Source: a virus. From it: a DNA stretch of 31,219 nucleotides. Every line of letters begins with the position of its first letter. Positions within the stretch are counted from its first letter, which is position 1. A program made the translations under genes and the position numbers. Positions 1,476 to 26,599 of this stretch are shown piece by piece. The stretch is from IMG/VR virus record IMGVR_UViG_3300046009_013073, positions 1 to 31,219 of that record. The stretch is one strand, 5' to 3'. Below the pieces are notes generated by a model. That model saw nothing but the letters and a program-made list of their open reading frames with translations, searched no databases and was not told the DNA's origin.

Positions 1476-1547
1476 GGTCCCATCGTCTATCGGTTAGGAC
1501 GTTAGGTTTTCATCCTAGAAAGCGGGGTTCGATTCCCCGTGGGACTA
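1476..1547 (+). tRNA. tRNA-Glu (UUC)
   Basis: A complete cloverleaf of 72 nt. The acceptor GGTCCCA pairs with TGGGACT and the T arm is CGGGG-TTCGATT-CCCCG. The anticodon loop TTTTCAT carries TTC. The discriminator is A and CCA is not encoded. It opens the tRNA cluster. Confidence 0.95.
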
Positions 1548-1604
1548 CAAAAACGCTTAATAGGACGAAGTACAAGTCTAATGCAGGGAGCGGATCCTGC
1601 AAAT

Positions 1605-1689
1605 GCTCGGGTGGTGGAACTGGTAGACACGCCGGACTTAAAATCCTGTGGGCATTACGCCCGTGCGGGTTCGATTCCCGCCCCGAGTA
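1605..1689 (+). tRNA. tRNA-Leu (UAA)
   Basis: An 85-nt type II tRNA. The acceptor GCTCGGG pairs with CCCGAGT, the D arm has the leucine-type GGTGGAACTGGTAGACAC pattern, the anticodon loop CTTAAAA carries TAA, and there is a GGGC/GCCC long variable arm. The anticodon stem has one C-T mismatch. UUA is likely a heavily used leucine codon in this AT-rich genome, so the gene plausibly supplements the host pool. Confidence 0.95.
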
Positions 1690-1858
1690 CAAAAAAATCG
1701 CGTGATGGAAACATCAAAGGTGTGTAATGCTAGCAGCACCGCAGGTTAAGCGATATCCTGCAATATTGTGTTGTCCCCTTGAGAAAGGAACAGGATTAAA
1801 TAAGATTAAGTGATTCGGGCTACTGTCTTACAACACAGAGGACTTCTCAACCTCACAT
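1690..1858 (+). ncRNA. structured tRNA-cluster spacer with possible pseudoknot
   Basis: The 169 nt between tRNA-Leu and tRNA-Gln have no convincing ORF but much complementarity. GCAGG (1741-1745) can pair with CCTGC (1757-1761). TGTGTTGT (1767-1774) matches ACAACACA (1830-1837), and TTGAGAA (1779-1785) matches TTCTCAA (1844-1850). The last two pairs interleave, as in an H-type pseudoknot. The segment could be a processed spacer or a small RNA; its function is unknown. Confidence 0.4.
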
Positions 1859-1931
1859 TGTCCTATGGTGTAACTGGCAACACGTCTGGTTTTGGTCCAG
1901 AAGAGTCGAGGTTCGAGCCCTTGTGGGACAA
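1859..1931 (+). tRNA. tRNA-Gln (UUG)
   Basis: A 73-nt cloverleaf. The acceptor TGTCCTA pairs with TGGGACA. The anticodon stem TCTGG/CCAGA closes the loop TTTTGGT with anticodon TTG. The T arm is CGAGG-TTCGAGC-CCTTG. The discriminator is A, and CCA is not encoded. Confidence 0.93.
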
Positions 1932-2097
1932 CAGCAGTTACTTGACTCCGATAGTTAACAGTAACAGTCGTTGGAATTTCGGAAGATTCACGAACGGCGG
2001 CGCAAGATAAGGAGTACTTGCAACAGTGGAGTGCCGAAGACAAAAGAAACGAAACGTAGGGGTGATCATACGTTGGTTTACAAATCTCCACTACAAT
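1932..2097 (+). other. gene-free structured spacer
   Basis: A 166-nt spacer with higher G+C than the flanking genes. It contains GTTACT/AGTAAC, GCAAG/CTTGC and GTGGAG/CTCCAC pairs. No ORF with a plausible start fits, and no further tRNA T-arm is visible. Confidence 0.4.
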
Positions 2098-2160
2098 GGT
2101 CATGTTGCATAAGGGTAAATGTACTATACTCAGCAGGGGGTTCGAGTCCCCCCTTGACCA
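2098..2160 (+). tRNA. tRNA-like gene with shortened anticodon region
   Basis: The acceptor GGTCATG pairs with CTTGACC (one T-T mismatch). The D arm is GCAT-AAGGGTAA-ATGT and the T arm is GGGGG-TTCGAGT-CCCCC, all good. Only about 12 nt (CTATACTCAGCA) lie between the D and T arms, where a normal tRNA has about 22, so there is no room for an anticodon stem plus variable loop. The total is 63 nt. It is either a degenerate tRNA or a tRNA-like RNA. No anticodon can be assigned. Confidence 0.5.
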
Positions 2161-2166
2161 CGCAAA

Positions 2167-2264
2167 AAACACATAAACTTCAGTTCCCACACAGCGGTGA
2201 GGCGGGCTAAGCTAGATACAATTTCTCGGGGCTGGGAGTAGAAGGCTGAAGAGTGTGTTTTTTT
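2167..2264 (+). ncRNA. structured RNA or complex terminator
   Basis: A nested fold: AAACACA (2167-2173) with TGTGTTT (2254-2260), CTTCAG (2178-2183) with CTGAAG (2246-2251), and TCCCA (2185-2189) with TGGGA (2233-2237), around a G-rich centre. The outer stem runs into a U tract. It may be an elaborate intrinsic terminator or a small RNA ending in one. It lies between two tRNA-like genes. Confidence 0.5.
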
Positions 2265-2268
2265 AAAT

Positions 2269-2371
2269 AGTCAGGTGGCGGAAAGGTAGACGCTGTAGGT
2301 TCACAACTACGAAGGCAAGAACTGTGAATGATACTTGCTTGACAATATAGGTTCGAGTCCTGTCCTGGCTA
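2269..2371 (+). tRNA. long type II tRNA-like gene, anticodon uncertain
   Basis: The acceptor AGTCAGG pairs with CCTGGCT, the D arm is leucine-like (GGCGGAAAGGTAGACGCT), and the T arm is ATAGG-TTCGAGT-CCTGT. The anticodon hairpin GTAG-GTTCACAA-CTAC has an 8-nt loop and only four clear pairs. It is followed by an unusually large hairpin, GCAAG/CTTGC. At 103 nt it is longer than a normal type II tRNA. CAC is one reading of the anticodon but is unsafe. It shares its ends with the genes at 10102 and 12139. Confidence 0.55.
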
Positions 2372-2448
2372 CGCAAAAAACATTGAATGGAGTTTCCTTA
2401 CCTCAATGAGAGATGGGTTTTAAAAGTTCATTTTTTAAATAAAGTTAT

Positions 2449-2775
2449 ATGACACCAGAACAATTCGTTTATTGGCTACAAGGATTTATGGAAATGGCCG
2501 ATCCAAAAGAGTTGAACATAACACAAACTCAACAAATTAAAGACCATTTAAAACTAGTATTTGATAAAAAGACACCAGAAGTATCTTTACCATCAATTCA
2601 ACATACGGAACCATTTAGAATCACTCCATACCAAATTACTTGTGATGACAACAATAATTTCCCTGATTTAATGACTACCCCAGTATGTAGCGCAACTACA
2701 ATAACTACAACATCACTTGATTCTGATGTTAAAAATGAATCTAAACGAGTAAAATTTGGTGGAATAAAATGTTAA
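2449..2775 (+). CDS. conserved phage protein with FVYWLQGFME motif
   Basis: The 108-residue protein begins MTPEQFVYWLQGFMEMADP and continues with a helix ending in DHLKLVF. This N-terminal pattern recurs in many phages of diverse bacteria as a small protein of unknown function. The C-terminal half is low-complexity (Thr/Ser/Asp), ending KRVKFGGIKC. It starts 77 nt after the tRNA-like gene and is the only protein gene inside the tRNA cluster before the large structured RNA. No function is known to me. Confidence 0.75.
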   Translation: MTPEQFVYWLQGFMEMADPKELNITQTQQIKDHLKLVFDKKTPEVSLPSIQHTEPFRITPYQITCDDNNNFPDLMTTPVCSATTITTTSLDSDVKNESKRVKFGGIKC

Positions 2776-3169
2776 CAATATGTATAAACAAATACCTACC
2801 ACGCTTCTGGACTGTGGTGACCACGATCGAGCGTACCAGGGTAGGTCTTTTGCACCCCACCAACATGCAAATGTTGGGACCCTCGAGTGATACGGTTGCT
2901 CGAGTATAGTTCTTTACCTTGAGTAAGGAATCTATAAAGGTTTTATACATTGAACCCAAATCAATGTACCACGCCCCCCTGTGGTGAGATAACCATAGGC
3001 CCAGTGCCATCGGGCTTACCGTAAGATCAGCTCACTTGTATGGCCTTTTCGATATTGGGAAATTGGGATGCTTTGTAAGTGCAAACGCGTTGCCTTTACA
3101 AACTACCATATAACCAGTATCACCCCCTAGATGGTCTACTTGATCAATAGATACCTCTAGGGTTTTTTT
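2776..3169 (+). ncRNA. candidate large ornate structured RNA (~390 nt)
   Basis: There is no ORF with a plausible start on either strand, but hairpins are dense: ACCTACC/GGTAGGT (2794/2840) enclosing ACGCT/AGCGT; CCAACAT-GCAA-ATGTTGG with a GNRA loop (2860-2877); CTCGAG/CTCGAG (2882/2899); CTTTAC/GTAAGG (2912/2923); an 8-bp stem TACATTGA/TCAATGTA (2946/2961); GCCC/GGGC (2999/3012); and TTTGTAA/TTACAAA around GCAA/TTGC (3072-3102). It ends with terminator CCCTAGA/TCTAGGG and seven T. Phages carry large RNAs such as GOLLD and ROOL near tRNAs. I see no specific match to those, so this may be a new class. Confidence 0.6.
3125..3169 (+). terminator. intrinsic terminator of the large RNA
   Basis: CCCTAGA (3125-3131) pairs with TCTAGGG (3156-3162), with GGT/ACC extending the stem inside, followed by TTTTTTT at 3163-3169. 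The next base is the first base of tRNA-Asp. Confidence 0.8.
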
Positions 3170-3244
3170 GGTGCGTTAGTTCAGTTTGGTTAGAATATCT
3201 GCCTGTCACGCAGAGGGTCACGGGTTCGAGTCCCGTACGCACCG
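3170..3244 (+). tRNA. tRNA-Asp (GUC)
   Basis: A 75-nt cloverleaf. GGTGCGT pairs with ACGCACC over seven perfect pairs, the anticodon stem TCTGC/GCAGA closes loop CTGTCAC with GTC, and the discriminator is G as expected for Asp. The gene starts directly at the U tract of the upstream terminator and ends 1 nt before the next ATG. Confidence 0.95.
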
Positions 3245-3245
3245 C

Positions 3246-3401
3246 ATGGAAAAGAAACAATTGAAAGTAAAAGTAGAACTTGGCTCACTAGAAAACGTTC
3301 TAGCAAAATTGGAGGAAAAATATAAAGAATTTCCTTCAAAAAATTTAAGTGACACAATTACACATTTACAAGCTACAATTCGTAGTTTAAAAAATGTTTA
3401 A
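3246..3401 (+). CDS. small hypothetical protein immediately after tRNA-Asp
   Basis: MEKKQLKVKVELGSLENVL starts a 51-residue, mostly helical and charged protein. I chose the ATG at 3246 because the open frame upstream of it lies inside tRNA-Asp. With only one base between the tRNA 3' end and the start codon, maturation of the tRNA would leave an mRNA with almost no leader. No family is recognised. Confidence 0.65.
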   Translation: MEKKQLKVKVELGSLENVLAKLEEKYKEFPSKNLSDTITHLQATIRSLKNV

Positions 3402-3409
3402 TATTTATA
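3401..3409 (+). promoter_or_regulatory. ATATTTATA box before tRNA-Ser
   Basis: This sequence lies 6 nt before tRNA-Ser. The same 9-mer occurs shortly before the starts at 3519, 8091, 26255 and 29418, so it may be a second promoter class. Confidence 0.3.
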
Positions 3410-3415
3410 ACAAAC

Positions 3416-3502
3416 GGAAGTGTGCTTGAGCGGTTTAAAAGGCTGGTCTTGAAAACCAGTGAATTCGAAAGGGTTCCGTAGGTTCGAATCCTACCACTTC
3501 CG
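3416..3502 (+). tRNA. tRNA-Ser (UGA)
   Basis: An 87-nt type II tRNA. GGAAGTG pairs with CACTTCC, the anticodon stem CTGGT/ACCAG closes loop CTTGAAA with TGA, the long variable arm contains a TTCGAAAGG element, the T arm is GTAGG-TTCGAAT-CCTAC, and the discriminator is G. Confidence 0.95.
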
Positions 3503-3506
3503 CTTA

Positions 3507-3515
3507 ATATTTATA
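3507..3515 (+). promoter_or_regulatory. ATATTTATA box before the gene at 3519
   Basis: It lies only 3 nt before the ATG, so a transcript starting downstream of it would be nearly leaderless. Alternatively it is an AT-rich translation-initiation context. Confidence 0.3.
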
Positions 3516-3518
3516 AAC

Positions 3519-3713
3519 ATGGATAAAATAACTAGTATATTAGCAATAGTGTTTTTAGGTGTAACGTGTGTTTTATGGCCATTTTGGCTAGCAAACGGTT
3601 ATTTAGATAGTTGGTATTTGAAAATATCTACATTCATTGCAGTGTATGGAGGTTTTACAGCAAATTTAGTGTGGTACCTTCAATACAGAAAAAACAATGG
3701 CAATAATATTTGA
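3519..3713 (+). CDS. small membrane protein, two TM segments
   Basis: A 64-residue protein, MDKITSILAIVFLGVTCVLW onward, with hydrophobic segments at about residues 5-28 and 38-55 and a basic tail (QYRKNNGNNI). The start at 3519 avoids the overlap with tRNA-Ser that a longer frame would need. It overlaps the next membrane protein gene by 17 nt, which suggests translational coupling. It is likely an inner-membrane protein; its role is unknown. Confidence 0.7.
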   Translation: MDKITSILAIVFLGVTCVLWPFWLANGYLDSWYLKISTFIAVYGGFTANLVWYLQYRKNNGNNI

Positions 3714-4107
3714 AATAGTATTTTATACAATAGCAAGCATAGTTTGTTTTGGAATAGCAGGATGGTGTGAAGCGATAATGGACACTTTACAATTCCATTT
3801 TGAATCATCTATTTTCTATTGTTTTAAAAAAAAGTACTTTTGGGACCCAAAAATATCTTGGTATAACAAGTACAAAAATAAAGACCCATTAGCTGGACCT
3901 CGTTTCCCAGGTTCAACAACTTTATTTGTTGGGGTAACAGATGGATGGCATTTCTTTAAATTATTGAGAAATTTATTCATATGTATAGGTGTATTTATTT
4001 TATTATACGCTATTGTAGGTCCGTTTTGGGCTTTAATATATGTTGTAATAGCAAGAGTGGTATTTGGTTTAGTATTTACTCTATTTTATTACATGTTGGG
4101 GGATTAG
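3697..4107 (+). CDS. conserved phage membrane protein (WDPKISW family)
   Basis: The 136-residue protein has hydrophobic helices at about residues 3-22 and 92-130. A soluble centre carries WDPKISWYNKYKNKDP, FPGSTTLF and TDGWHFFK, motifs I recognise from a family of membrane proteins in Bacteroidota and their phages with no known function. The last codons, GGG GAT TAG, lie inside tRNA-Ala, a 10-nt overlap on the same strand. It is coupled to the small membrane gene upstream. Confidence 0.75.
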   Translation: MAIIFEIVFYTIASIVCFGIAGWCEAIMDTLQFHFESSIFYCFKKKYFWDPKISWYNKYKNKDPLAGPRFPGSTTLFVGVTDGWHFFKLLRNLFICIGVFILLYAIVGPFWALIYVVIARVVFGLVFTLFYYMLGD

Positions 4108-4171
4108 CTCAGCTGGCTAGAGCACCTGCCTTGCACGCAGGGGGTCAACGGTTCGACTCCGTTATCCTCCA
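4098..4171 (+). tRNA. tRNA-Ala (UGC)
   Basis: A 74-nt cloverleaf. GGGGGAT pairs with ATCCTCC, including a G3-U70 wobble, the classic alanine identity element. Anticodon stem CCTGC/GCAGG closes loop CTTGCAC with TGC. The discriminator is A. Its first 10 nt are also the last codons of the upstream membrane protein gene. Confidence 0.96.
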
Positions 4172-4175
4172 CTTC

Positions 4176-4205
4176 AACCCTACTTTTATAGTAGGGTTTC
4201 TTTTT
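4176..4205 (+). terminator. intrinsic terminator after tRNA-Ala
   Basis: AACCCTACT (4176-4184) pairs perfectly with AGTAGGGTT (4190-4198) around loop TTTAT, followed by a T-rich tract. It closes the tRNA cluster. Confidence 0.9.
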
Positions 4206-4242
4206 CCTTGGATATTTAAATTTTCTTTCATATACTTAAAGT

Positions 4243-4959
4243 ATGAAAATGGAAATTACCTTTATATCAGATACTCACGGAAAACATAACCAAATCATAA
4301 AAGACTTACCTGGTGGAGACGTATTGATCCACGCTGGTGATTTTATGAACTCAGGTTATCAACAAACAGAGGCAACCCAATTTTTAGAGTGGTTTGATAA
4401 AATAAATAACTACGAGAACAAAATATTCATTGCTGGAAACCACGATCGTTTATTTGAAAATGACCCTGAATGGACAAAATTTATACTAGACGAATATAAA
4501 ACAATAGATTATCTACAGGATGAAGAATGGGTTGACTACAATGATGGGCCAAACGGTGACTCACCAGAAGATAACATTCGCATTTACGGTTCACCGTGGC
4601 AACCTGAATTTTACAATTGGGCATTCAATTTACCTCGAAACGGAGATAAAATGAAAGCATATTGGGATGCTATTCCAAACAATACAGACATATTAGTTAC
4701 ACATGGTCCACCTTACGGACATTTGGATGTACCAGGAGGGCATACAATTCGAGTTGGATGTGAAATGTTACGTTTTCGAGTAGATGAAATCAAACCAAAA
4801 ATACATGTATTTGGTCATATTCATGGCAGTGCAGGATATTATTTCAATGGACATACACATTTTATAAACGCTGCTGTTTTAAACGAGCAATATATGTATC
4901 AAAATATTCCATTAACAATTGAGTGGGACAACATTACCAATGAAATTAAATGGTTGTAA
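4243..4959 (+). CDS. calcineurin-like metallophosphoesterase
   Basis: The 238-residue protein carries all the metal-binding motifs of the family: D10-T-H12, G-D33, G-N66-H67-D68, H154 (THGPP) and G-H192-I-H194. The short form with an early GGDVLIHAGD and late VTHGPPYGHLD resembles the MPPED1/MPPED2 subgroup, which hydrolyses phosphodiesters and has been linked to 2',3'-cyclic substrates. In a phage it might process RNA ends or cyclic nucleotide signals, but that is inference. It follows the tRNA cluster terminator and precedes a phage promoter, so it may be monocistronic. Confidence 0.9.
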   Translation: MKMEITFISDTHGKHNQIIKDLPGGDVLIHAGDFMNSGYQQTEATQFLEWFDKINNYENKIFIAGNHDRLFENDPEWTKFILDEYKTIDYLQDEEWVDYNDGPNGDSPEDNIRIYGSPWQPEFYNWAFNLPRNGDKMKAYWDAIPNNTDILVTHGPPYGHLDVPGGHTIRVGCEMLRFRVDEIKPKIHVFGHIHGSAGYYFNGHTHFINAAVLNEQYMYQNIPLTIEWDNITNEIKWL

Positions 4960-4960
4960 G

Positions 4961-4994
4961 AGGAATAGGCTATTTAAAAGAAGTTTTGTATATT
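4961..4994 (+). promoter_or_regulatory. ECF-type phage promoter
   Basis: Minus-35-like AGGAATAGG at 4961 and TTTGTATATT ending at 4994. It drives the gene at 5008. Confidence 0.75.
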
Positions 4995-5007
4995 TAAAAT
5001 AAAAAAG

Positions 5008-5307
5008 ATGGCAAAGAGATTAAGTAGACAGGAAAAAATCGATCAATCAATAGTTGATTTGATTAATGAAATGTTTAAAATTGCAGGTCATGAAGTAACA
5101 TATGATGATATCAAAGATCGTAAAGATAATTGGTTTCAAGAATACACAATGACTGAAGAGCAAAACAATGAATGGATTGAATTTGGTAAAAAATACATCA
5201 AGAAAAAATTACCTATGCTTGCTTATAGAGCAGAAAAAGAAATGATGTGGATTAATTTAATGTGGGGTTTAAAAACAATAAGAAATGAGCAAACTGAATC
5301 AAACTAA
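5008..5307 (+). CDS. conserved phage hypothetical protein (99 aa)
   Basis: A helical, charged protein beginning MAKRLSRQEKIDQSIVDLIN with aromatic C-terminal helices (EKEMMWINLMWGL). Similar proteins occur in large Bacteroidota phages without assigned function. It is the first gene of a compact series: its 3' end overlaps the next gene by 23 nt, and four further genes follow with very short gaps or overlaps. Expression is expected from the promoter at 4961. Confidence 0.7.
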   Translation: MAKRLSRQEKIDQSIVDLINEMFKIAGHEVTYDDIKDRKDNWFQEYTMTEEQNNEWIEFGKKYIKKKLPMLAYRAEKEMMWINLMWGLKTIRNEQTESN

Positions 5308-5599
5308 AATACCAGTTGATATAGAAGATTCTAGACCAACCCCAAAATATAAACTAGTAAGAGAACATGACGGTTTAACAAAACATTCAGAAGATGTTCT
5401 TTGGGTAGAATGGGATGAAGGAGGATATTTCAAAGAAAGACATCCACAACTTGAAATAGGTAGGTCACTGTTAATGTCCCCGTTCCACCCATTTTTCTTT
5501 ACATGGCAAACTACACCTGTAACCGAAATTATAGAACAGAGGGAAGACTATATTAAATTCAAAACAGAAAATAGTAACTACGAATTATTTAAACTATGA
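5285..5599 (+). CDS. hypothetical protein (104 aa)
   Basis: It starts MSKLNQTKIPVDIEDSRPTP and is rich in beta-forming and aromatic residues: YKLVREHDG, WVEWDEGGYFKERHP, SPFHPFFFTWQTTPV. This suggests a small soluble beta domain. It overlaps both neighbours (23 nt upstream, ATGA at the 3' end), which supports co-translation. I do not recognise a family. Confidence 0.65.
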   Translation: MSKLNQTKIPVDIEDSRPTPKYKLVREHDGLTKHSEDVLWVEWDEGGYFKERHPQLEIGRSLLMSPFHPFFFTWQTTPVTEIIEQREDYIKFKTENSNYELFKL

Positions 5600-5832
5600 G
5601 AATCAGTCACGAAGGCAAAGGTAGACCAGCTGAGGAAAAAATACCAACAGTTGTAGTATATAAAAAACCAACAGGAAAAAAACACTACATGCTAGTAACA
5701 GAATCTGAAGTTGACACTATTTTAACCTCAGCTAAACGTAAACCACTTATTCCAGATGGGTGTGAAGTGGTTGATATTGGAATTGGAAAATCGTTTATTG
5801 AAAAATTTAAAAAACAATACGACATAAAATGA
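5596..5832 (+). CDS. hypothetical protein (78 aa)
   Basis: MRISHEGKGRPAEEKIPTVV begins a small alpha/beta protein ending FIEKFKKQYDIK. Its ATG overlaps the stop of the previous gene in ATGA, and its own stop overlaps the next start in the same way, so it is the middle of a coupled chain. No known family. Confidence 0.65.
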   Translation: MRISHEGKGRPAEEKIPTVVVYKKPTGKKHYMLVTESEVDTILTSAKRKPLIPDGCEVVDIGIGKSFIEKFKKQYDIK

Positions 5833-6059
5833 AACAGTGGTACAGACATGGTGAACAAATGTATATCATCCACCGAAAAATAGCGATTTCATCGTTTACA
5901 AACGCAAATGGTATATTAAACATGGAAATAGTTAAAGAAGGAAGAGACTCGTTGTTTAACGTGGATCATGTGTTGAAAACAGATTCACATTTTTTATTTG
6001 TAGAAACAATTCAAGATGCTGAAATTATTGAAGAAATGGTGGAAGAAGCACATTGCTGA
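5829..6059 (+). CDS. hypothetical protein (76 aa)
   Basis: It begins MKQWYRHGEQMYIIHRKIAI and ends with an acidic helix, AEIIEEMVEEAHC. It is the last gene of the overlapping set that starts at 5008. The overlap with the previous gene is ATGA. Nothing in the sequence indicates a function. Confidence 0.6.
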   Translation: MKQWYRHGEQMYIIHRKIAISSFTNANGILNMEIVKEGRDSLFNVDHVLKTDSHFLFVETIQDAEIIEEMVEEAHC

Positions 6060-6097
6060 TACTTGCCCTGAACATTTAAATGATATATTTTAAAATT

Positions 6098-6637
6098 ATG
6101 ATAGACAAAATTAAATTGTGGTGGAAATTTGAAGGTAGATATTACCATAGAGATTTCACAAACGGAATTAAAAACTTATGGAAATGGTTTCCTGTAATTT
6201 GGAGAGATAGAGATTGGGATTCAAATTTTATATATGAGATACTTATCCATAAACTAGAAAAACAAGCCACTTATATTCACAAACATGGAAACCATGTTAG
6301 TGCTGAACGTGATGCTGAAAAAATGTTTTTATGTGCTAGATTGGCTCGTATTCAACAAGAGGAATTGTATATGGATGAATATTATGACACATATGAAATG
6401 AAATGGGAATTTGTTCCAACAGATGAAACCGAAAAATGGTTTACAATGGAAACAGAAATTACCAGTGAGAATTTTATAGACTATTTTGCAAAATATCCAA
6501 GACAATATCGTTTGATCGATAAAACAGATAAGGAAAAAAATGAAATTGCAAGAGAAATAGCATACAGAAACCAAGAACGTTCTCGTAAACTGTTATTTAA
6601 AATAATGGAAGAGAATATTGAAAGATGGTGGAACTAA
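6098..6637 (+). CDS. conserved phage protein, Trp-rich helical family
   Basis: About 179 residues from the ATG at 6098. An ATG at 6080 is in frame but lies in an AT box (GATATATTTTA) that could be promoter sequence. The protein is rich in Trp, Tyr and His: WWKFEGRYYHRDF, NLWKWFPVIWRDRDWDSNF, then EILIHKLEKQATYI and YRNQERSRKLLFKIM. WFPVIWRDRDWD followed by a helical KLEKQA segment marks a family found in many large phages, with no known function. Arg and Asp pairs could form a catalytic or nucleotide site, but this is unproven. Confidence 0.75.
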   Translation: MIDKIKLWWKFEGRYYHRDFTNGIKNLWKWFPVIWRDRDWDSNFIYEILIHKLEKQATYIHKHGNHVSAERDAEKMFLCARLARIQQEELYMDEYYDTYEMKWEFVPTDETEKWFTMETEITSENFIDYFAKYPRQYRLIDKTDKEKNEIAREIAYRNQERSRKLLFKIMEENIERWWN

Positions 6638-6664
6638 AATACAAATTAACCCAAATATAAAACA

Positions 6665-6922
6665 ATGATATCACCACAATCAATTAGAAAAGGAATTACC
6701 ATTAAATTTGATGGAATTATAGTAGACAAACAAACTGTCCTTAAAGCAAGTGAAGAATGGAAAGAAAGTCACGAGACATTATTTAAAAAACTACTTAAAC
6801 AAGGTGGTTCATTTAAAATAAATGGAGTAGTAGTTGAAGTTAGACCAGAAGAAAAAACATTCAACTCAAAAGGTGAAACAGACGGAGGTGCTCCAAAAGT
6901 AGATCCATTAGCTAGATTTTAG
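6665..6922 (+). CDS. hypothetical protein (85 aa)
   Basis: It starts MISPQSIRKGITIKFDGIIV with a beta-rich N-terminal half and a second short beta hairpin (GGSFKINGVVVEVRP). The last 25 residues, ending DPLARF, look disordered. It sits 27 nt after the Trp-rich gene and 15 nt before the lipoprotein gene in one transcription unit. No family recognised. Confidence 0.6.
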   Translation: MISPQSIRKGITIKFDGIIVDKQTVLKASEEWKESHETLFKKLLKQGGSFKINGVVVEVRPEEKTFNSKGETDGGAPKVDPLARF

Positions 6923-6937
6923 AATAAAATTTAAAAT

Positions 6938-7228
6938 ATGAAAATAAATTGGAAACAAATTATTTATATCCTAACAGGAATAACTTTAGGTTATTCTTTA
7001 TTTGGATGTAAATCATCAAAGAATGGATGTGATGCTTATTCATTACAATGGGCTCAAGAAGTTGATTCACTTATAGTTTATAAAGATGATGAAATTTTTC
7101 TTCCTAAAATACAAGCAAATAATGCTAAACAAATGCATTTTAACAATATGGAAAAAGGAATATATGTTGTCAATCTTTTAAAAAACGGAGAAGTCATTGA
7201 AACTAAAAAACTAACCATTAACAAATAA
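6938..7228 (+). CDS. putative lipoprotein
   Basis: The N-terminus MKINWKQIIYILTGITLGYS is a signal peptide with a positive n-region, a hydrophobic core and a lipobox-like LFGC, with cysteine at residue 24. The mature 73 residues are soluble and include a VVNLLKNGEVIETKKL strand pair resembling a small beta-sandwich edge. It is probably anchored in the host envelope. In phages such proteins can act in superinfection exclusion, but there is no direct evidence here. Confidence 0.7.
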   Translation: MKINWKQIIYILTGITLGYSLFGCKSSKNGCDAYSLQWAQEVDSLIVYKDDEIFLPKIQANNAKQMHFNNMEKGIYVVNLLKNGEVIETKKLTINK

Positions 7229-7232
7229 CTTC

Positions 7233-7844
7233 ATGAAAAACCTCAGATATTTAAAAACATATTTTTCCCCATTCAAACCACTTACACCAAGGTTTTATAT
7301 TGGAAAAACAGCTATTGGTACACCATATTTCTACCCACGTAAATGGGTTAAAGCAACTCCGGCATTAGCCCACGAAGATGCATTACGCCAGATAAAACGT
7401 GTAGAAGATTTTAATGAACGCAATGTAAAATATGGATCACCCCAAACAGTACCCGATTATGACACTGCATATGCTCGCGCAATGAGATATACCTATCCAA
7501 AAAACAAACGTATTGGTATTGACTTTGTAGAATTGGGATGGAAAACAAAATGGACAGATAAAGATATTCGCTTTGAATGGGCTCCAATTTGGTCATTTGT
7601 GTTTTTTGGATATCAAATAGCAATTACATGGAATGCACCTGAACAAGATCATTATTGGGAGTCATGGATATACTATGAATATCACACTGACAAAACAAAA
7701 TCAAAAGCAGAGCGTATTGAGCAATGTAAAACAGAATTTCCAAACACTTGGACTAGACATGGAAAAGATGGAATTCCTGTTGAAATCAATTACTACGATT
7801 TAATTTTAAGAAAAAAATATTTAACAGAGGAAGAGGGAGCGTAA
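7233..7844 (+). CDS. conserved phage protein with LGWKTKW motif
   Basis: The 203-residue protein contains FYIGKTAIGTPYFYPRKWVK, IDFVELGWKTKWTDKDIRFEW, PIWSFVFFGYQIAITW and ESWIYYEYHTDK. These blocks mark a family I know from many large phages, still of unknown function. The conserved W/Y/F and charged residues suggest a folded enzyme or nucleic-acid-binding domain. The stop codon lies in the loop of a terminator hairpin whose U tract leads straight into the next promoter. Confidence 0.8.
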   Translation: MKNLRYLKTYFSPFKPLTPRFYIGKTAIGTPYFYPRKWVKATPALAHEDALRQIKRVEDFNERNVKYGSPQTVPDYDTAYARAMRYTYPKNKRIGIDFVELGWKTKWTDKDIRFEWAPIWSFVFFGYQIAITWNAPEQDHYWESWIYYEYHTDKTKSKAERIEQCKTEFPNTWTRHGKDGIPVEINYYDLILRKKYLTEEEGA

Positions 7845-7861
7845 GCTCCCTTTTGTATATT
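7828..7861 (+). promoter_or_regulatory. ECF-type phage promoter enclosing a terminator
   Basis: AGGAAGAGG at 7828 and TTTGTATATT ending at 7861. The spacer is the terminator hairpin. It drives the gene at 7879. Confidence 0.7.
7835..7854 (+). terminator. terminator with the stop codon in its loop
   Basis: GGGAGC (7835-7840), loop GTAA, GCTCCC (7845-7850), TTTT. The TAA stop (7842-7844) of the preceding gene is in the GNRA-type loop. Confidence 0.85.
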
Positions 7862-7878
7862 TCATTCAAAATTAAGAA

Positions 7879-8088
7879 ATGAAAATTATATTAGATAAAA
7901 AACGATGTGAACCTAAACCAAAACAATTTATAGTGTTAAACGAATACTGTCAGGTGTTTTGTGGTTTACAGGGCGGTTATCCTGCTTTCAGTGATAATTT
8001 AGATGAAGCCAAACCACTTGAAAGAGATTCTCAAATTAGATTGATTCAACAAGGAACTTCATTTAGATTAGAAAAGGAATATTTATAA
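7879..8088 (+). CDS. hypothetical protein (69 aa)
   Basis: MKIILDKKRCEPKPKQFIVL begins a short beta-rich protein (QVFCGLQGGYPAFSDNLDEAK) resembling small phage proteins of an uncharacterised type. It has its own promoter at 7828. Its stop codon overlaps an ATATTTATA box just upstream of the next ATG at 8091. Function unknown. Confidence 0.65.
   Translation: MKIILDKKRCEPKPKQFIVLNEYCQVFCGLQGGYPAFSDNLDEAKPLERDSQIRLIQQGTSFRLEKEYL
8079..8087 (+). promoter_or_regulatory. ATATTTATA box before the gene at 8091
   Basis: The 9-mer overlaps the stop codon of the upstream gene and lies 3 nt before the ATG, the same layout as at 3507. Confidence 0.25.
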
Positions 8089-8090
8089 CC

Positions 8091-8264
8091 ATGGAAGAGA
8101 GAATTTTAGAGGAACTTAAAGCAGCACACTATGCTTTAGTTAACGCAAAAGAATATGACCTTGAAGCTGAAGTGTTTGTTTGGTCTTTGATTTATTTAAA
8201 AGAAAATCCAGATTTAACCATTGAGGAAGCTATTGAAAAGGGACATAGCGAATGGATTAAATAG
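8091..8264 (+). CDS. small acidic helical protein (57 aa)
   Basis: MEERILEELKAAHYALVNAK starts a 57-residue protein composed of two or three amphipathic helices and ending GHSEWIK. It is too short for family assignment. It follows the previous stop by 2 nt, and its TAG stop is next to the minus-35-like box of the next promoter, so it is well bounded on both sides. Confidence 0.6.
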   Translation: MEERILEELKAAHYALVNAKEYDLEAEVFVWSLIYLKENPDLTIEEAIEKGHSEWIK

Positions 8265-8298
8265 AGGAATAGGTTTTGAAAAAGAAATTTCGTATATT
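8265..8298 (+). promoter_or_regulatory. ECF-type phage promoter
   Basis: AGGAATAGG at 8265 and TTCGTATATT ending at 8298. It drives the membrane protein at 8320. Confidence 0.8.
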
Positions 8299-8319
8299 AA
8301 AGTATAAAAGAAAAAAGTT

Positions 8320-8547
8320 ATGAAAATAAATTTTACATCATTGTTAGTTAAAGTAGGTTTAGCTTACGGTTTAGTAGTGTTTTTGAGTAATCCAAAAAAC
8401 ATTAAACGTTTAAAGTATTTTGTTATATTTTCGTTTGCTATTTTTATAGTAATTAGTATTATTTTACTTATAGCTAATTTTGATTATGACTTGTATAAAA
8501 AAGAAATGAAGGAAATTCAAAGAAGTAATCAAACTTTAAGTTACTAG
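8320..8547 (+). CDS. small membrane protein, two TM segments
   Basis: A 75-residue protein with hydrophobic stretches at about residues 7-23 and 32-53, and a basic loop (NPKNIKRLKY) between them. A charged tail (DLYKKEMKEIQRSNQ) follows. The layout suggests both ends on one side of the inner membrane. It is a single-gene unit with its own ECF-type promoter. Function unknown. Confidence 0.65.
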   Translation: MKINFTSLLVKVGLAYGLVVFLSNPKNIKRLKYFVIFSFAIFIVISIILLIANFDYDLYKKEMKEIQRSNQTLSY

Positions 8548-8581
8548 AGGAATAGAAGATTTAAAAGTAAATTCGTATATT
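8548..8581 (+). promoter_or_regulatory. ECF-type phage promoter
   Basis: AGGAATAGA at 8548 and TTCGTATATT ending at 8581. It drives the gene at 8606. Confidence 0.8.
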
Positions 8582-8605
8582 TAAAGTAAGAAAAAAATAA
8601 AGGTT

Positions 8606-8833
8606 ATGTATAGAAGAAATTTCTTAACAGTGAAAAATAACAATGGTTTTCATCCAATAATTGCAGAAAGTAAATTATGTATAGGAGATAAATTAGTATT
8701 GCAACATTTACTTGAAAACGAATTCAATTACGATATTTTACTATTGTTAAAAGATATGATGAAACATGCTATTGAAATGGAAGAATATGAAGTGGCAGCA
8801 ATTTTAAGAGATGAATTAAATAAAGGAATATAA
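8606..8833 (+). CDS. small UVR-motif protein
   Basis: A 75-residue protein whose C-terminus, HAIEMEEYEVAAILRDELN, is a clear UVR motif (A-x2-x-E-x-YE-x-AA-x-LRD-x-L), as in the UvrB/UvrC interaction helices and in McsA and ClpC-type proteins. The N-terminal 45 residues are unassigned. A stand-alone UVR motif could bind a host protein with a matching motif, for instance a repair nuclease or Clp adaptor; this is inference. Confidence 0.75.
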   Translation: MYRRNFLTVKNNNGFHPIIAESKLCIGDKLVLQHLLENEFNYDILLLLKDMMKHAIEMEEYEVAAILRDELNKGI

Positions 8834-8857
8834 AATCTAAAATAATTTTCGTATATT
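8824..8857 (+). promoter_or_regulatory. ECF-type phage promoter
   Basis: AGGAATATA at 8824, inside the last codons of the UVR gene, and TTCGTATATT ending at 8857. It drives the gene at 8886. Confidence 0.8.
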
Positions 8858-8885
8858 AAATTAAATAAAAGAAATAAAGGTTATT

Positions 8886-9230
8886 ATGGCAAAAAAAGAA
8901 AAACACATTATCGAGACAAAATTTGAAACGTTAAAAAGCAAATTCAAAGCAGGTGAATTAACAACCGACGAAATCGACAATTTAACATGCAAGTTAATTA
9001 TGGAATTAGCATTACTCACTGAACGAGGAATTACAGAAATAAATGGCACTTCAATTGATTTGTACAAAGATAGAGTTTGGTGGATGGTAGAGAAAGCTGG
9101 ATTATTACCTGAATATAGGGATCCTGGAGAGGACTTGTTTGATTTAATAGATGATGAAGAAGATGACTATTACAAAATGGGAGACGATGATTTTGATTTT
9201 GAAATAGATGATAGTAAATTTTATAAATAA
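8886..9230 (+). CDS. hypothetical protein with acidic tail (114 aa)
   Basis: The N-terminal 75 residues are helical (FETLKSKFKAGELTTDEIDN, then KLIMELALLTERG). The C-terminal 35 are extremely acidic (EEDDYYKMGDDDFDFEIDD). Such Asp/Glu tails are common in DNA-mimic or histone-like-binding phage proteins, but also in many unrelated proteins. It is a single-gene unit with its own promoter and RBS-like AAAGGTT. Confidence 0.65.
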   Translation: MAKKEKHIIETKFETLKSKFKAGELTTDEIDNLTCKLIMELALLTERGITEINGTSIDLYKDRVWWMVEKAGLLPEYRDPGEDLFDLIDDEEDDYYKMGDDDFDFEIDDSKFYK

Positions 9231-9252
9231 AGTTTGGAAACCCAAAAAAGTT

Positions 9253-9265
9253 TTCGTATATTTAA
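9253..9265 (+). promoter_or_regulatory. phage promoter minus-10 box
   Basis: TTCGTATATTTAA before the DUF932 gene. No RGGA box at the usual distance; GGAAA occurs only 20 nt upstream of GTATATT. Confidence 0.5.
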
Positions 9266-9287
9266 ATAAATTAAAAAAGAAAAAGTT

Positions 9288-10091
9288 ATGTTAAATTTAA
9301 AAAATGATGGCTTTTTAAGCACAAGCCAAATCAAAGAAAAAGCAAAATCAGTATTCACTGAAACTGCTGCACCAACTGTTTCAGACAAATTTACACATAT
9401 CCCGACTCATAAGGTGATTGAGGATATGGAACAATTAGGATGGGGTGTAGTTGATGTTAAAGAAGTGAAAGCAAGAAAGGGTGTTGGCTTCCAAAAACAT
9501 TTAGTTGTATTCCGTAACCCAGACATTGTAATCAATGGAGCAGATGGTGATACAGTTTTTCCTCAACTTTTACTAACCAATAGTAATGATGGAAAAAACG
9601 CATTCACATTCATAGCAGGAATTTTCAGAATGATATGTGAAAACGGTTTGGTTGTTTCCACTCAAGAATTTGAAAATGTAAGAATCCGTCATATGGGATA
9701 TACGTTTGAGGAACTACAGAAACAAGTTCGTACCATGGTTGAACATTTACCGTTAACAGTTGAATCAATGAACAAAATGAAAGCTATCCAATTGAGTGAG
9801 GAACAAGCAAAAGAATTAGCTACAAAAGCATTGACAACACGTTTCACAGAAGAACAAGTTGAAGGTTTGAACATTGATTTAGATTTGTTACTTGAACCAA
9901 CACGCCCTGAAGATAAAGGTAGTGATTTATGGTCAGTGTTTAACGTGATTCAAGAAAAGATATTAGATGGAAGTTTCACATATATGTCAGGGGCTAAAGT
10001 AAGAAAAGCTCGTAAAGTAAAGAATTTCAAACAAGACATAGAAATCAACCAAAAATTATTTGCAATGGCAGCTGAATTTATAGCTGCCTAA
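9288..10091 (+). CDS. DUF932-type phage/plasmid-like protein
   Basis: The 267-residue protein shows the DUF932 (phage/plasmid-like, YfjQ/YafZ-related) pattern: HKVIEDMEQLGWGVVDV near the start, a central LLLTNSNDGKNAFTFIAGIFRMICENGLVV, and GSDLWSVFNVIQEKILDG near the end. Members are common on plasmids and phages, often next to defence or anti-defence genes, but their biochemical role is not settled. The length is in the usual range and there is no visible truncation. A tRNA-like gene and a strong terminator follow. Confidence 0.85.
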   Translation: MLNLKNDGFLSTSQIKEKAKSVFTETAAPTVSDKFTHIPTHKVIEDMEQLGWGVVDVKEVKARKGVGFQKHLVVFRNPDIVINGADGDTVFPQLLLTNSNDGKNAFTFIAGIFRMICENGLVVSTQEFENVRIRHMGYTFEELQKQVRTMVEHLPLTVESMNKMKAIQLSEEQAKELATKALTTRFTEEQVEGLNIDLDLLLEPTRPEDKGSDLWSVFNVIQEKILDGSFTYMSGAKVRKARKVKNFKQDIEINQKLFAMAAEFIAA

Positions 10092-10101
10092 GACAAAGGT
10101 A

Positions 10102-10174
10102 AGTCAGGTGTACTTAAATGGTAAATTACCTAACGTTTAATTAGGAAATGCAGGTTCGAATCCTGTCCTGACAA
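10102..10174 (+). tRNA. tRNA-like gene, possible tRNA-Lys (UUU), U33 replaced
   Basis: A 73-nt cloverleaf. AGTCAGG pairs with CCTGACA except for A-A at the end, the anticodon stem CCTAA/TTAGG is perfect, and the T arm is GCAGG-TTCGAAT-CCTGT. The loop CGTTTAA gives anticodon TTT, but position 33, almost always U, is G. The D stem is weak (ACTT/AATT with one mismatch). Its 3' half and the flank after it are nearly identical to those of the gene at 12139, indicating duplication. Confidence 0.6.
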
Positions 10175-10200
10175 CAAAACGCTTCATAACCGTTTCTTTT

Positions 10201-10237
10201 CCTGCCGTGTGGATACGAACGCACGGCAGGTTTTTTT
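10201..10237 (+). terminator. strong intrinsic terminator
   Basis: CCTGCCGTG pairs with CACGGCAGG, followed by seven T. It ends the DUF932 and tRNA-like transcription unit. Confidence 0.93.
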
Positions 10238-10241
10238 AAAA

Positions 10242-10275
10242 AGGACGTGTATGAGCAAAAGAAAAATTGTATATT
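10242..10275 (+). promoter_or_regulatory. ECF-type phage promoter
   Basis: AGGACGTGT at 10242 and ATTGTATATT ending at 10275. It drives the four-gene set from 10290. Confidence 0.7.
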
Positions 10276-10289
10276 TAAAATAAAAAAAT

Positions 10290-10490
10290 ATGAACACACA
10301 TTTAAAAACAACATTAACACTTTTATCCATTGTTGCTATTGCAACAGGAGTTTATTTTGACCCAATTACCACATTAGTGGTAGTTGTATTGTTATTTTCA
10401 TACATAGCAATTTACATTGACATTAAAGAAACAGAAAATGAAAAAAAGAAAAATGGAGAAGATACTAGAACAACTGAAGGAGACATTTGA
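10290..10490 (+). CDS. small membrane protein, two TM segments
   Basis: 66 residues with hydrophobic helices at about residues 8-22 and 26-44, then a hydrophilic tail ending TTEGDI. It is the first gene after the promoter at 10242. The following coding frame overlaps its 3' end. It is likely an inner-membrane protein; function unknown. Confidence 0.65.
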   Translation: MNTHLKTTLTLLSIVAIATGVYFDPITTLVVVVLLFSYIAIYIDIKETENEKKKNGEDTRTTEGDI

Positions 10491-10617
10491 TCTTCAAAAT
10501 GAAATGATTGAGATACTAAAAGAAAATTTAGAATCTCGAGATAAATTCATAAACATATTAGAACGTCAATTAAAAATAGCAGAAAACCACATAAAAACAT
10601 TACATGGACAAAAATAA
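10438..10617 (+). CDS. small coiled-coil protein
   Basis: From the ATG at 10438 (an earlier ATG at 10417 increases overlap) it is 59 residues: MKKRKMEKILEQLKETFDLQ followed by heptad-like ILKENLESRDKFINILERQL, a single long coiled coil. It overlaps the gene before by about 50 nt and the gene after by 14 nt. With flanking small membrane proteins, the arrangement recalls phage spanin/holin-type clusters, but no such motif is seen. Confidence 0.55.
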   Translation: MKKRKMEKILEQLKETFDLQNEMIEILKENLESRDKFINILERQLKIAENHIKTLHGQK

Positions 10618-10804
10618 ATCAACATCAAGCGGATTAGGGATTGGAATGATACTTTTCCTTATATTTTTAACTTTAAAACTAGCCGAAATCGGACCAGTAC
10701 AGTATTGGTCGTGGTGGTGGGTATTTGCTCCGCTTTGGATACCACTTGCTGTAGTTGTGTTAATTATCGGAATGGTAGGAATCTTTTATTTAATGAAACG
10801 ATGA
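10604..10804 (+). CDS. small membrane protein with WSWWWVFAPLWIP motif
   Basis: 66 residues with two hydrophobic segments (about 12-28 and 38-62) and the motif WSWWWVFAPLWIPL between them, a signature I know from a widespread family of small phage and bacterial membrane proteins of unknown function. The ATG overlaps the previous gene by 14 nt and its stop overlaps the next start in ATGA. Confidence 0.75.
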   Translation: MDKNKSTSSGLGIGMILFLIFLTLKLAEIGPVQYWSWWWVFAPLWIPLAVVVLIIGMVGIFYLMKR

Positions 10805-11037
10805 GAAAAGTAACACCCGATAATAAAACATTCAAACATATTAAGGGAATGATTGGTAAAATAACATACACTAATTTATCTCCAACTATGAAAGCAGAAT
10901 TAACCGGATGTGATAAAGAAAAATCATGGTTTGTAGTGTTACCTCACCAAGAACATATAAAATACAATGCGTGCGCTGGGCAAACATTTTATGTTCCAAC
11001 ATATATGGCTGTTAACTTTGATTATAAAGAGGATTAG
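10801..11037 (+). CDS. hypothetical protein (78 aa)
   Basis: I use the ATG at 10801, which overlaps the previous stop in ATGA, over an upstream ATG at 10705 that would lie deep in the previous gene. The protein MRKVTPDNKTFKHIKGMIGK onward looks like a small beta-barrel (GMIGKITYTNLSPTM, SWFVVLPHQEHIKY). It is the last gene before the sigma factor; its 3' end carries that gene's minus-35-like box. Confidence 0.6.
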   Translation: MRKVTPDNKTFKHIKGMIGKITYTNLSPTMKAELTGCDKEKSWFVVLPHQEHIKYNACAGQTFYVPTYMAVNFDYKED

Positions 11038-11063
11038 ATTTTAAAATAAAGGTTTCGTATATT
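11030..11063 (+). promoter_or_regulatory. ECF-type promoter of the sigma factor gene
   Basis: AGGATTAGA at 11030 and TTCGTATATT ending at 11063, only 9 nt before the sigma ATG. This implies autoregulation and a near-leaderless mRNA. Confidence 0.78.
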
Positions 11064-11072
11064 AAAAGAGTT

Positions 11073-11672
11073 ATGAAAGAAGAAAAATTAAAAGAAATAA
11101 TAAAAGGTTGTATTGAACAAGACTCTAACTCTCAAAAAGAATTATATAATCTTTTTTATAACAAGATGTTAGCAGTTTGTTACAAACATACCTCAGACCC
11201 GGAAGTAGCTAAAGACACAGTTCAAGATGGATTTATTAAAGTTTTTCAATCCATACATACATTTAAAAGTGATCATATCAATTATAAAGTAGAGGCTATT
11301 TTATACTCGTGGATGAGACGAATCATGTATAATACTTCATTTGACAGATTAAGAAGAGAAAAAATTAGACCTACTAATGTACAAACTGATTATAAGTTTA
11401 TTAACTTAATATCTAGTAATGATTTTGAGGAAAATGAAGATAACATATTAAGGGAAAAAATAATAGAATCTGCATTAGAGGCAATAGAAGGGTTAGCTCC
11501 TATGCTTAAATTAGTTGTTAACAAATTTATTTTTGATGGATACTCACATCAACAAATAGCTAATGAACTTGGGATTAGTGAAGGAACATCTAAATCATAT
11601 TTTTTTAGAGCTAAAGAAAGATTAAGAAAAATCATGGAAAAAAAGTTAAAAGGAGTAGAATTAATAAGATAA
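11073..11672 (+). CDS. phage-encoded ECF-type RNA polymerase sigma factor
   Basis: The 199-residue protein has both domains of ECF sigma factors. Region 2 (about residues 20-95) has ELYNLFYNKMLAVCYKHTSD, VAKDTVQDGFIKVFQSI and SWMRRIMYNTSFDRLR. Region 4 (about 135-188) has the helix-turn-helix YSHQQIANELGISEGTSKS followed by RAKERLRKIM. The wording of both motifs is that of Bacteroidota ECF factors. There is no obvious anti-sigma gene next to it. It carries the same bipartite promoter that precedes some 30 genes here, so it most likely directs host RNA polymerase to those promoters. It lies in the small-gene region and the gp55-like sigma in the late region, suggesting it acts earlier. Confidence 0.93.
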   Translation: MKEEKLKEIIKGCIEQDSNSQKELYNLFYNKMLAVCYKHTSDPEVAKDTVQDGFIKVFQSIHTFKSDHINYKVEAILYSWMRRIMYNTSFDRLRREKIRPTNVQTDYKFINLISSNDFEENEDNILREKIIESALEAIEGLAPMLKLVVNKFIFDGYSHQQIANELGISEGTSKSYFFRAKERLRKIMEKKLKGVELIR

Positions 11673-11684
11673 ATTTCGTATATT
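11651..11684 (+). promoter_or_regulatory. ECF-type phage promoter
   Basis: AGGAGTAGA at 11651, within the sigma gene's last codons, and TTCGTATATT ending at 11684. It drives the gene at 11702. Confidence 0.8.
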
Positions 11685-11701
11685 TAATAAAAATAAAAGT
11701 T

Positions 11702-11965
11702 ATGACAGTAAGAGAATTTAGAACAACAGTAGGAGAAACAAAGATATTCTCAGTTGATTTCATTAAAAAAGATGGTTCATTGAGAACAATGATTGCCCGT
11801 TTAGGTGTAAAAAAACATTTACAAGGAGGAACATTAAAATACAATGCTGAAGAAAAATCATTATTGCCTGTATTTGACATGGAGAAACAAGCATACAGAA
11901 TGGTAAATGTAAGTACTATTCAAGAGATTAGATATGATGGGGAAACAATCAAATTAGAAGATTAA
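11702..11965 (+). CDS. SH3-like beta-barrel (DUF2693-like) protein
   Basis: The 87-residue protein reads MTVREFRTTVGETKIFSVDF, then DGSLRTMIARLGVKKHLQGG, LLPVFDMEKQAYRMVNVSTI and EIRYDGETIKLED. The repeated beta strands and the pattern DGSLRTM...VFD...YR-x-N-x2-TI match small SH3-fold proteins annotated in Bacteroides phages and mobile elements (DUF2693-like). The role is unknown, possibly RNA or protein binding. A small membrane gene follows 4 nt later. Confidence 0.65.
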   Translation: MTVREFRTTVGETKIFSVDFIKKDGSLRTMIARLGVKKHLQGGTLKYNAEEKSLLPVFDMEKQAYRMVNVSTIQEIRYDGETIKLED

Positions 11966-11969
11966 ATAC

Positions 11970-12131
11970 ATGAAAAAATATCACATACCATTTGGAGGGT
12001 TGTATTTATATTTAAGAAGTTTTAAAATCTATCAATATGAAAATACCACCAAAGAAATTTTATTTGATTTTTGGATGGTTTTATACCATTCAGTTTATAT
12101 TGGTTTATCATTAGGTTTACTCCTAATTTAA
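11970..12131 (+). CDS. small hypothetical protein with C-terminal TM segment (53 aa)
   Basis: MKKYHIPFGGLYLYLRSFKI opens a 53-residue protein whose last 20 residues (WMVLYHSVYIGLSLGLLLI) are hydrophobic. It starts 4 nt after the previous gene and ends 7 nt before a tRNA-like gene, so both edges are tight. It is possibly a tail-anchored membrane peptide. No family recognised. Confidence 0.55.
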   Translation: MKKYHIPFGGLYLYLRSFKIYQYENTTKEILFDFWMVLYHSVYIGLSLGLLLI

Positions 12132-12138
12132 ATAATAT

Positions 12139-12224
12139 AGTCAGGTGGCGGAATGGTAGACGCTATACTTAAGCAGTTGAAGCTGGGTAATTCAACAATA
12201 CAGGTTCGAATCCTGTCCTGACTA
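12139..12224 (+). tRNA. type II tRNA-like gene with abnormal anticodon arm
   Basis: 86 nt. AGTCAGG pairs perfectly with CCTGACT, the D arm GCG-GAATGGTAGA-CGC is leucine-like, and the T arm is ACAGG-TTCGAAT-CCTGT. Between them the only strong helix is GTTGAA/TTCAAC. The 12 nt before it (TATACTTAAGCA) cannot make a normal anticodon stem. AAG or TAA can be read as an anticodon only with a broken stem. The ends closely match the genes at 2269 and 10102. Confidence 0.55.
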
Positions 12225-12263
12225 CAAAACGTTTCATAACCGTTTTATCTTGAATATACGATT

Positions 12264-12290
12264 AAAGCCCATCTAAAAAGGTGGGCTTTT
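12264..12290 (+). terminator. intrinsic terminator
   Basis: AAAGCCCA (12264-12271) pairs with TGGGCTTT (12282-12289), ending in a short T run. It follows the tRNA-like gene. Confidence 0.85.
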
Positions 12291-12299
12291 AATGTTAAG

Positions 12300-26254: not shown

Positions 26255-26599
26255 ATGAGTAATTTAGAAGAAAATATTTGGGGTAAGAAAAAATTCTCTG
26301 ATTTATTAAAAGAAATTTACGAAAATTCAAAGAAAAAAGAAGCCCAAATTAACGCTCTAATAGGTGAATTAAAACCCCTTATCACAGACATAGGCGATGC
26401 TACTTTAATAGTTCCTTTAATCAAGGAATATATGGAATTAGGTATTAAAAATGATGAACAATTGATTAAAATGGCTACTATTGCCCAACGTGCAATTGCT
26501 AGTGGTAAATCAAGTGAGGAAGGATTTGGTATGACTGAAGAGGAAAAAGCTCAATTATTACAAGAAGTTAAAAAATTTAATTCTAAAGATGATAAATAA
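26255..26599 (+). CDS. helical hypothetical protein between late sigma and gp5 (114 aa)
   Basis: MSNLEENIWGKKKFSDLLKE starts an all-helical protein with central GELKPLITDIGDATLIVPLI and ending EEEKAQLLQEVKKFNSKDDK. Its place between gp55-like and gp5-like genes would suit a gp33-type co-activator or a small structural chaperone, but I see no motif for either. It overlaps the next gene by 11 nt, so translation is coupled. Confidence 0.62.
   Translation: MSNLEENIWGKKKFSDLLKEIYENSKKKEAQINALIGELKPLITDIGDATLIVPLIKEYMELGIKNDEQLIKMATIAQRAIASGKSSEEGFGMTEEEKAQLLQEVKKFNSKDDK

Follow-up and report, generated by a model that had tools for sequence, protein, structure and literature searches.

The 31,219-nt stretch of DNA analysed here (positions 1 to 31,219 of the IMG/VR virus record IMGVR_UViG_3300046009_013073, hereafter the window) raises the question of what a phage might do with genes that keep most parts of a tRNA and lack the one that reads a codon. 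Four such elements, numbered 1 to 4 (Table 1), were noticed in a preliminary description, which suggested that they might be decoys against tRNA-targeting defences. Our comparison shows that they belong to a large family of phage-encoded tRNA-like RNAs predicted not to decode, in which a different RNA structure, referred to below as the interior or payload, stands in the place of the anticodon arm.

The anatomy of the four elements had been described correctly. Rfam scores, folds and comparison with relatives agree that the acceptor, D and T arms are kept in all four and that the anticodon arm is missing or abnormal. The Rfam tRNA model (gathering score 29) gives 41.3 bits to 12139-12224, 34.1 to 2269-2371 and 32.0 to 10104-10172, whereas element 1 was undetected by this model at E<=1 and was recognised by comparison with relatives; no Rfam 15 family except tRNA matched any of the window elements. 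ARAGORN finds only element 4 among them, as a false Leu(aag). In element 1, the acceptor strands GGTCATG/CTTGACC (2098-2104/2153-2159) form six of seven pairs and are followed by A73 at 2160, the D stem is GCA/TGT (2107-2109/2120-2122) and the T arm (2136-2152) has 5 bp. The shortened anticodon region reported for this element is a linker of only 13 nt (2123-2135) between the D and T arms. Element 1 is kept in two relatives, L290 and L293, with a compensated D-stem pair in L290 (A-U to G-C), and its homologue in L240 has the AGTCAGG acceptor. This acceptor, together with a nearly identical T arm, is common to elements 2, 3 and 4, and elements 3 and 4 are indeed solitary. In element 2, the 8-nt loop is present on a 4-bp stem, and we found in addition a second hairpin of 7 bp, whose loop sequence UGUGAA could pair with UUCACA of the first loop; no relatives of this interior were found, so that it is unique so far. 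Element 3 represents the type closest to tRNA. It has a 5-bp anticodon stem (10129-10133/10141-10145) and a 7-nt loop, CGUUUAA, in which G33 (10135) replaces U33 as had been noted. This G33 occurs in all six sequences of the type (element 3 and the five relatives found), position 34 varies between T, C and A, and the arm, CCTAA-CGNTTAA-TTAGG, is similar to the true tRNA-Lys arm CCTAACTTTTAATTAGG present in L272 and L294. Finally, the unrelated hairpin seen in element 4 folds as 6 bp (12176-12181/12191-12196), with an invariant loop, GCUGGGUAA, and an invariant 5' strand, UAUACUUAAGCAG.

We then asked how widespread this architecture is. The exact 25-mer AGTCAGGTGGCGGAAWGGTAGACGC, which covers the acceptor 5' strand and the Leu-type D arm, matched at least 120 stretches in viral contigs and only four contigs of metagenome-assembled genomes among 84,980 bacterial and archaeal genomes; a separate search with the 3' part again gave at least 120 stretches. 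In 118 of 121 untruncated 5' hits, the next 260 nt hold both the same T arm and an acceptor strand complementary to the first, and the identical test shifted 400 nt downstream gave 12, as expected given closely spaced elements. Members of this set are 72-161 nt long (median 106). Moreover, the 3' signature occurs 1-9 times per contig of 95-289 kb and never in the reversed-pattern control, which rules out a chance origin. Altogether, 398 distinct members were found; their interiors form 281 clusters that are unrelated to one another, including 219 singletons, with a Chao1 estimate of about 880. These counts are lower bounds for the family as delimited by its AGTCAGG frame (there are also frames with another acceptor, outside the counts), and they come from blastn clustering, in which strongly diverged homologues may be counted apart. 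Among 80 loci holding relatives of the phosphoesterase gene at 4243-4959, selected regardless of the elements, 20 have at least one copy within the stretch examined. No carrier was recognised by blastn in the 50,697 phage records of INPHARED, and a pattern scan of six isolate or huge phages with related terminases found none either.

The shared frame consists of the acceptor stem, the D arm (in most cases of Leu type), the T arm and a discriminator A, with no encoded CCA. Most members have the Leu-type D arm together with A73, and some have other D-arm designs (AGTCAGGTAATGCGTAATG...). Further departures from the common frame were observed. A second, internal T-arm-like hairpin (e.g. GTCGGTTCGAGTCCGAT) stands in the place of the D arm at L009:2390, L028:13264, L063:2809 and L104:4030 and in L142 and L352. 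A variant of the frame that lacks a normal D arm, AGTCAGGTAATGCGTAATGTGAAAATGG..., was seen at L229:5774, L231:6919, L232:6818 and L240:7631, those of L232 and L240 having about 40 nt extra at the apex compared with those of L229 and L231. In L273 and L279, copies of element 4 carry an extra D-loop hairpin, GAGCGTGGTGTCCACGCTC, with GG and the interior intact.

Could any of these RNAs decode? Nucleotides 27-43 were examined as a 5-bp stem with a 7-nt loop in the 153 clusters that have a Leu-type D arm. This arrangement was found in two of the 153 (the shuffled background being 0.8%), and with U33 in none. Furthermore, the relatives at the same loci hold other non-decoding interiors and never a normal anticodon arm, so that the check named in the preliminary description as a possible refutation came out in its favour.

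The interiors themselves appear to be maintained. RNAalifold consensus structures of 60 interior alignments contain 62 compensatory pairs, against 16.3±4.0 (maximum 22) in column-shuffled control alignments folded as the real ones, and on average the interiors are more stable than their dinucleotide shuffles (mean minimum free energy z -0.75, s.e.m. 0.07). The interior of element 4 is the most telling case. Its pattern matched 21 contigs, 20 of them with family members, many in unrelated flanks, and one being a chance coding match. Over 16 distinct sequences there is variation in the D loop, the acceptor and the T stem but hardly any in the interior; in L154, the interior stem is exchanged by compensatory changes and both flanking strands are kept. 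In the hairpin structure of element 4, nine pairs are altered on both sides, against 0.7 in shuffled alignments and 0-2 for slid structures. Because compensatory changes exceed their controls both over all alignments and in element 4, these genes do not behave as pseudogenes, and the comparison shows the interiors to be RNA structures under selection rather than products of decay.

What varies between sites is the whole unit. Four genomic sites with similar flanks hold different interiors, and the units therefore exchange as cassettes. At the site marked by the phrog_12094 gene, a family member was found in the locus in 12 of 16 relatives, most of them right behind the gene, and the same CTTCATAAC hairpin and terminator follow most of their differing interiors. 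Behind the spacer RNA S4, where the window has element 2, L291 and L076 have other interiors. Two siphophage-type sites, A and B, have a common upstream gene end and promoter, followed by six and four unrelated interiors, respectively; at site A the downstream sequence too is common to most members, and L282 holds there the interior of element 4. No integrase was found in the siphophage-type carriers, which are short contig fragments. In L053, L071 and L073, interiors recur with different, still-pairing acceptor sequences, which indicates that the tRNA fold is retained and not merely a DNA end sequence. The terminases of family carriers can be as little as 24-27% identical. The comparison as a whole shows exchange of complete units as cassettes between sites and unrelated phages, for which the near-identical ends would offer an obvious homology for recombination.

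The window, a 31-kb virus-record fragment, comes from a tailed phage of large size whose baseplate genes are T4-like, and the nearest isolate relatives found are the Flavobacterium phages 'immuto' (30% by tblastn for the protein of 26589-27854; for the G002 terminase, from a related contig, the value is 56%). In 397 upstream stretches we counted 40 copies of the Bacteroidota -7 box TAnnTTTG, of which 27 lie within -18 to -8 (against 4 for a reversed-motif control); 15 boxes begin exactly at -12, all of them from sites A and B, and so represent two sites and not 15 independent events. The F. johnsoniae box occupies positions -12 to -5 (PMC6847099), and with this spacing transcription would start on the first acceptor nucleotide. 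Some elements would thus have promoters of their own, with +1 at acceptor nucleotide 1. Because of the box and the isolate relatives, the hosts of the carrier phages are probably Bacteroidota. At the other end, in relatives (L225-L240), the CTTCATAAC hairpin between element and terminator has an invariant loop and a paired stem that varies, and is possibly a protein-binding or processing site.

Table 1. Features of the window in order of position.
Feature	Position	Strand	Remark
Element 1, short tRNA-like RNA	2098..2160	+	among the shortest family members
Spacer RNA S4, structured, conserved	2161..2268	+	directly 5' of element 2; before different elements in some relatives
Element 2, AGTCAGG/Leu-type D arm scaffold	2269..2371	+	interior 2294-2346; T arm 2347-2363
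phrog_12094 gene, unknown function	9288..10091	+	directly 5' of element 3; marks the cassette site in relatives
Element 3, AGTCAGG scaffold with tRNA-Lys-like anticodon stem	10102..10174	+	Rfam tRNA match
CTTCATAAC hairpin (AACG-CTTCATAAC-CGTT) and intrinsic terminator	10177..10240	+	closes the element 3 site; hairpin 10177-10195
Element 4, AGTCAGG/Leu-type D arm scaffold	12139..12224	+	interior 12164-12199
CTTCATAAC-type hairpin copy and terminator-like hairpin (GCCCATC/GGTGGGC, T run)	12226..12292	+	3' of element 4; hairpin 12226-12247

The surroundings of the elements contain other conserved RNAs. The spacer RNA S4 (conserved over 2164-2262) shows 8 compensatory pairs in 16 sequences, against 0.7±1.0 in shuffled ones. 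It lies within a cluster of six ordinary tRNAs (1476-4172: Glu, Leu, Gln, Asp, Ser and Ala). Within the same cluster, S5 (2793-3150) is a conserved structured non-coding RNA of about 360 nt without an Rfam match, with homologues in L291, L297, L258, L290, L293 and L292 (mean identity 57%) and 24 compensatory pairs against 1.2±1.1 in shuffled alignments. The conserved structured spacer RNA S3 (1932-2092, about 160 nt) has 16 compensatory pairs in nine sequences, against 3.1±1.5, and the conserved spacer RNAs S1/S2 (1692-1858) contain a recurring TTGAGAAAGGAA hairpin. The tRNA cluster is adjoined by the metallophosphoesterase gene (4243-4959), which has 341 relatives in viral contigs. Between 8800 and 20900 of the window lie many small genes, each with the near-identical motif TTCGTATATTTAAGTATAA upstream, probably a phage promoter.

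What, then, would the interiors be for? We see an even chance that the family represents natural tRNA scaffolds whose payload RNA acts in trans, most likely on defences or competitors. The part of the preliminary interpretation that holds is that of non-decoding RNAs which retain the tRNA parts needed for processing and CCA addition. Host tRNA enzymes would recognise the frame, namely RNase P where a leader exists, the 3' processing enzymes and the CCA-adding activity, perhaps also the leucyl-tRNA synthetase (LeuRS) and EF-Tu. Like its laboratory counterpart, the 'tRNA scaffold', the frame would yield a stable, abundant and nuclease-resistant RNA. The payload would work in trans through its shape, most likely by inhibiting or mimicking host defence factors or competing elements. 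Such a role would explain at once why payloads are diverse and turn over, and why any single payload is nearly invariant across distant phages. Within the same reading, we tentatively regard the family as a phage-borne RNA display system, in which hundreds of payload families, swapped on one tRNA frame, would each inhibit one given host defence or competing element; as tentatively, this system might be the RNA counterpart of anti-defence gene islands. Several points weigh against these proposals. No defence gene or protein partner is consistently linked to the elements; the gene most often found beside them, that of phrog_12094, owes this partly to the search design. The payloads have no common motif beyond a weak k-mer enrichment (e.g. 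GTAAGTCC), and the payload of element 2 has no relatives from which selection could be read. Moreover, diversity and exchange are also compatible with antisense regulators or with inter-phage warfare.

Regulation by antisense is the alternative that we take most seriously, while judging it unlikely. The scaffold would stabilise a guide, the loops of which would pair with RNAs of the host or of rival phages. Invariant single strands next to covarying stems, such as UAUACUUAAGCAG and GCUGGGUAA in element 4, speak for such guides. However, when the interiors were compared with element-masked phage DNA, no clear excess of long complementary matches was found, since the strong matches were unmasked copies of the elements and the remainder barely exceeded reversed controls; many interiors are, besides, mostly paired or made of several hairpins. 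A non-translational aminoacylated tRNA would be a LeuRS substrate that, once charged, serves another enzyme or merely loads LeuRS and EF-Tu. The Leu-type D arm and A73 of most members speak for it, but the other D-arm designs do not, and selected, hypervariable interiors would be left unexplained, so that we find this account improbable.

The decoy, or resistant substitute, for anticodon nucleases proposed in the preliminary description is at least as improbable. Phage-encoded tRNAs can protect against defences that cleave tRNA, as is known for retron-Eco7 (PMC11555353) and PrrC-type systems (PMC10264068), and the tRNA-Lys-like arm of the element 3 type, with its conserved G33, also speaks for this proposal. 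Nevertheless, the canonical loop with U33 is absent from all 153 interiors, and we reject the decoy as a general account. Elements 1, 2 and 4 have no anticodon loop and offer a nuclease no expected target, and even in the element 3 type position 34 is unconserved; only this type could serve as such a decoy. Equally, the precise exchange at fixed sites might suggest punctuation or selfish cassettes, in which the tRNA-like ends would be used for RNA processing or recombination and the interior itself would be without function. Since interiors covary and may be more conserved than the frame, this explanation, already disfavoured, is very improbable. As for degenerate tRNA genes or assembly errors, to which the weak tRNA scores in the window might point, the chance is close to nil: the elements recur in hundreds of contigs, with conserved promoters and with interiors that covary and are identical in independent assemblies, and interior covariation together with the compensation in element 4 refutes decay or error as a general account.

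If payloads act as proposed for the natural scaffolds, phages would hold a large unlisted library of small folded RNAs, sorted by selection and each set in a natural expression frame. Such a library would lead directly to RNA inhibitors of bacterial defences, and would account for the inability of some phage 'tRNA genes' to decode. Even without a function, the family is a large class of structured RNAs, exactly bounded and concealed by tRNA annotation. In either case, the role of non-decoding phage tRNAs becomes a directly testable question.

As judged from Rfam 15, INPHARED, GTDB and open-access papers, the family is apparently undescribed: no other Rfam family reaches its cut-off in the tested loci, and no open-access paper was found that describes such a tRNA-framed payload family. 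GOLLD lies near phage tRNAs. Like the family, GOLLD and ROOL (PMC12286853) are structured RNAs, but they form much larger single families and have no tRNA frame. Decoding phage tRNAs (RF00005), including those that rescue from tRNA-cleaving defences, share the acceptor, D and T arms and the location in phage tRNA clusters; the family differs in having no functional anticodon arm and, in its place, a structured RNA that is unrelated and is swapped as a cassette. In tmRNA, a tRNA-like acceptor and T arm likewise enclose a non-tRNA insert, whereas the family keeps the D arm and has many unrelated inserts, with no reading frame or tag seen. Neither ARAGORN nor Rfam finds a tmRNA in the window; one sub-threshold match (L024:1916-2038, 18.9 bits for a cut-off of 47) lies outside it. 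With regard to the proposed action, the family may be likened to pseudo-ToxI of phiTE, a phage RNA that mimics the antitoxin of ToxIN (PMC3475682) and so imitates or inhibits part of a defence, in the form of tandem repeats without a tRNA frame. The closest parallel in design is the engineered 'tRNA scaffold' for RNA expression (PMC3753655), in which a payload replaces the anticodon stem-loop within the same acceptor, D and T frame. The family described here would be its natural, phage-borne equivalent with hundreds of payload families, and we propose the natural tRNA-scaffold RNA as a new, putative class.

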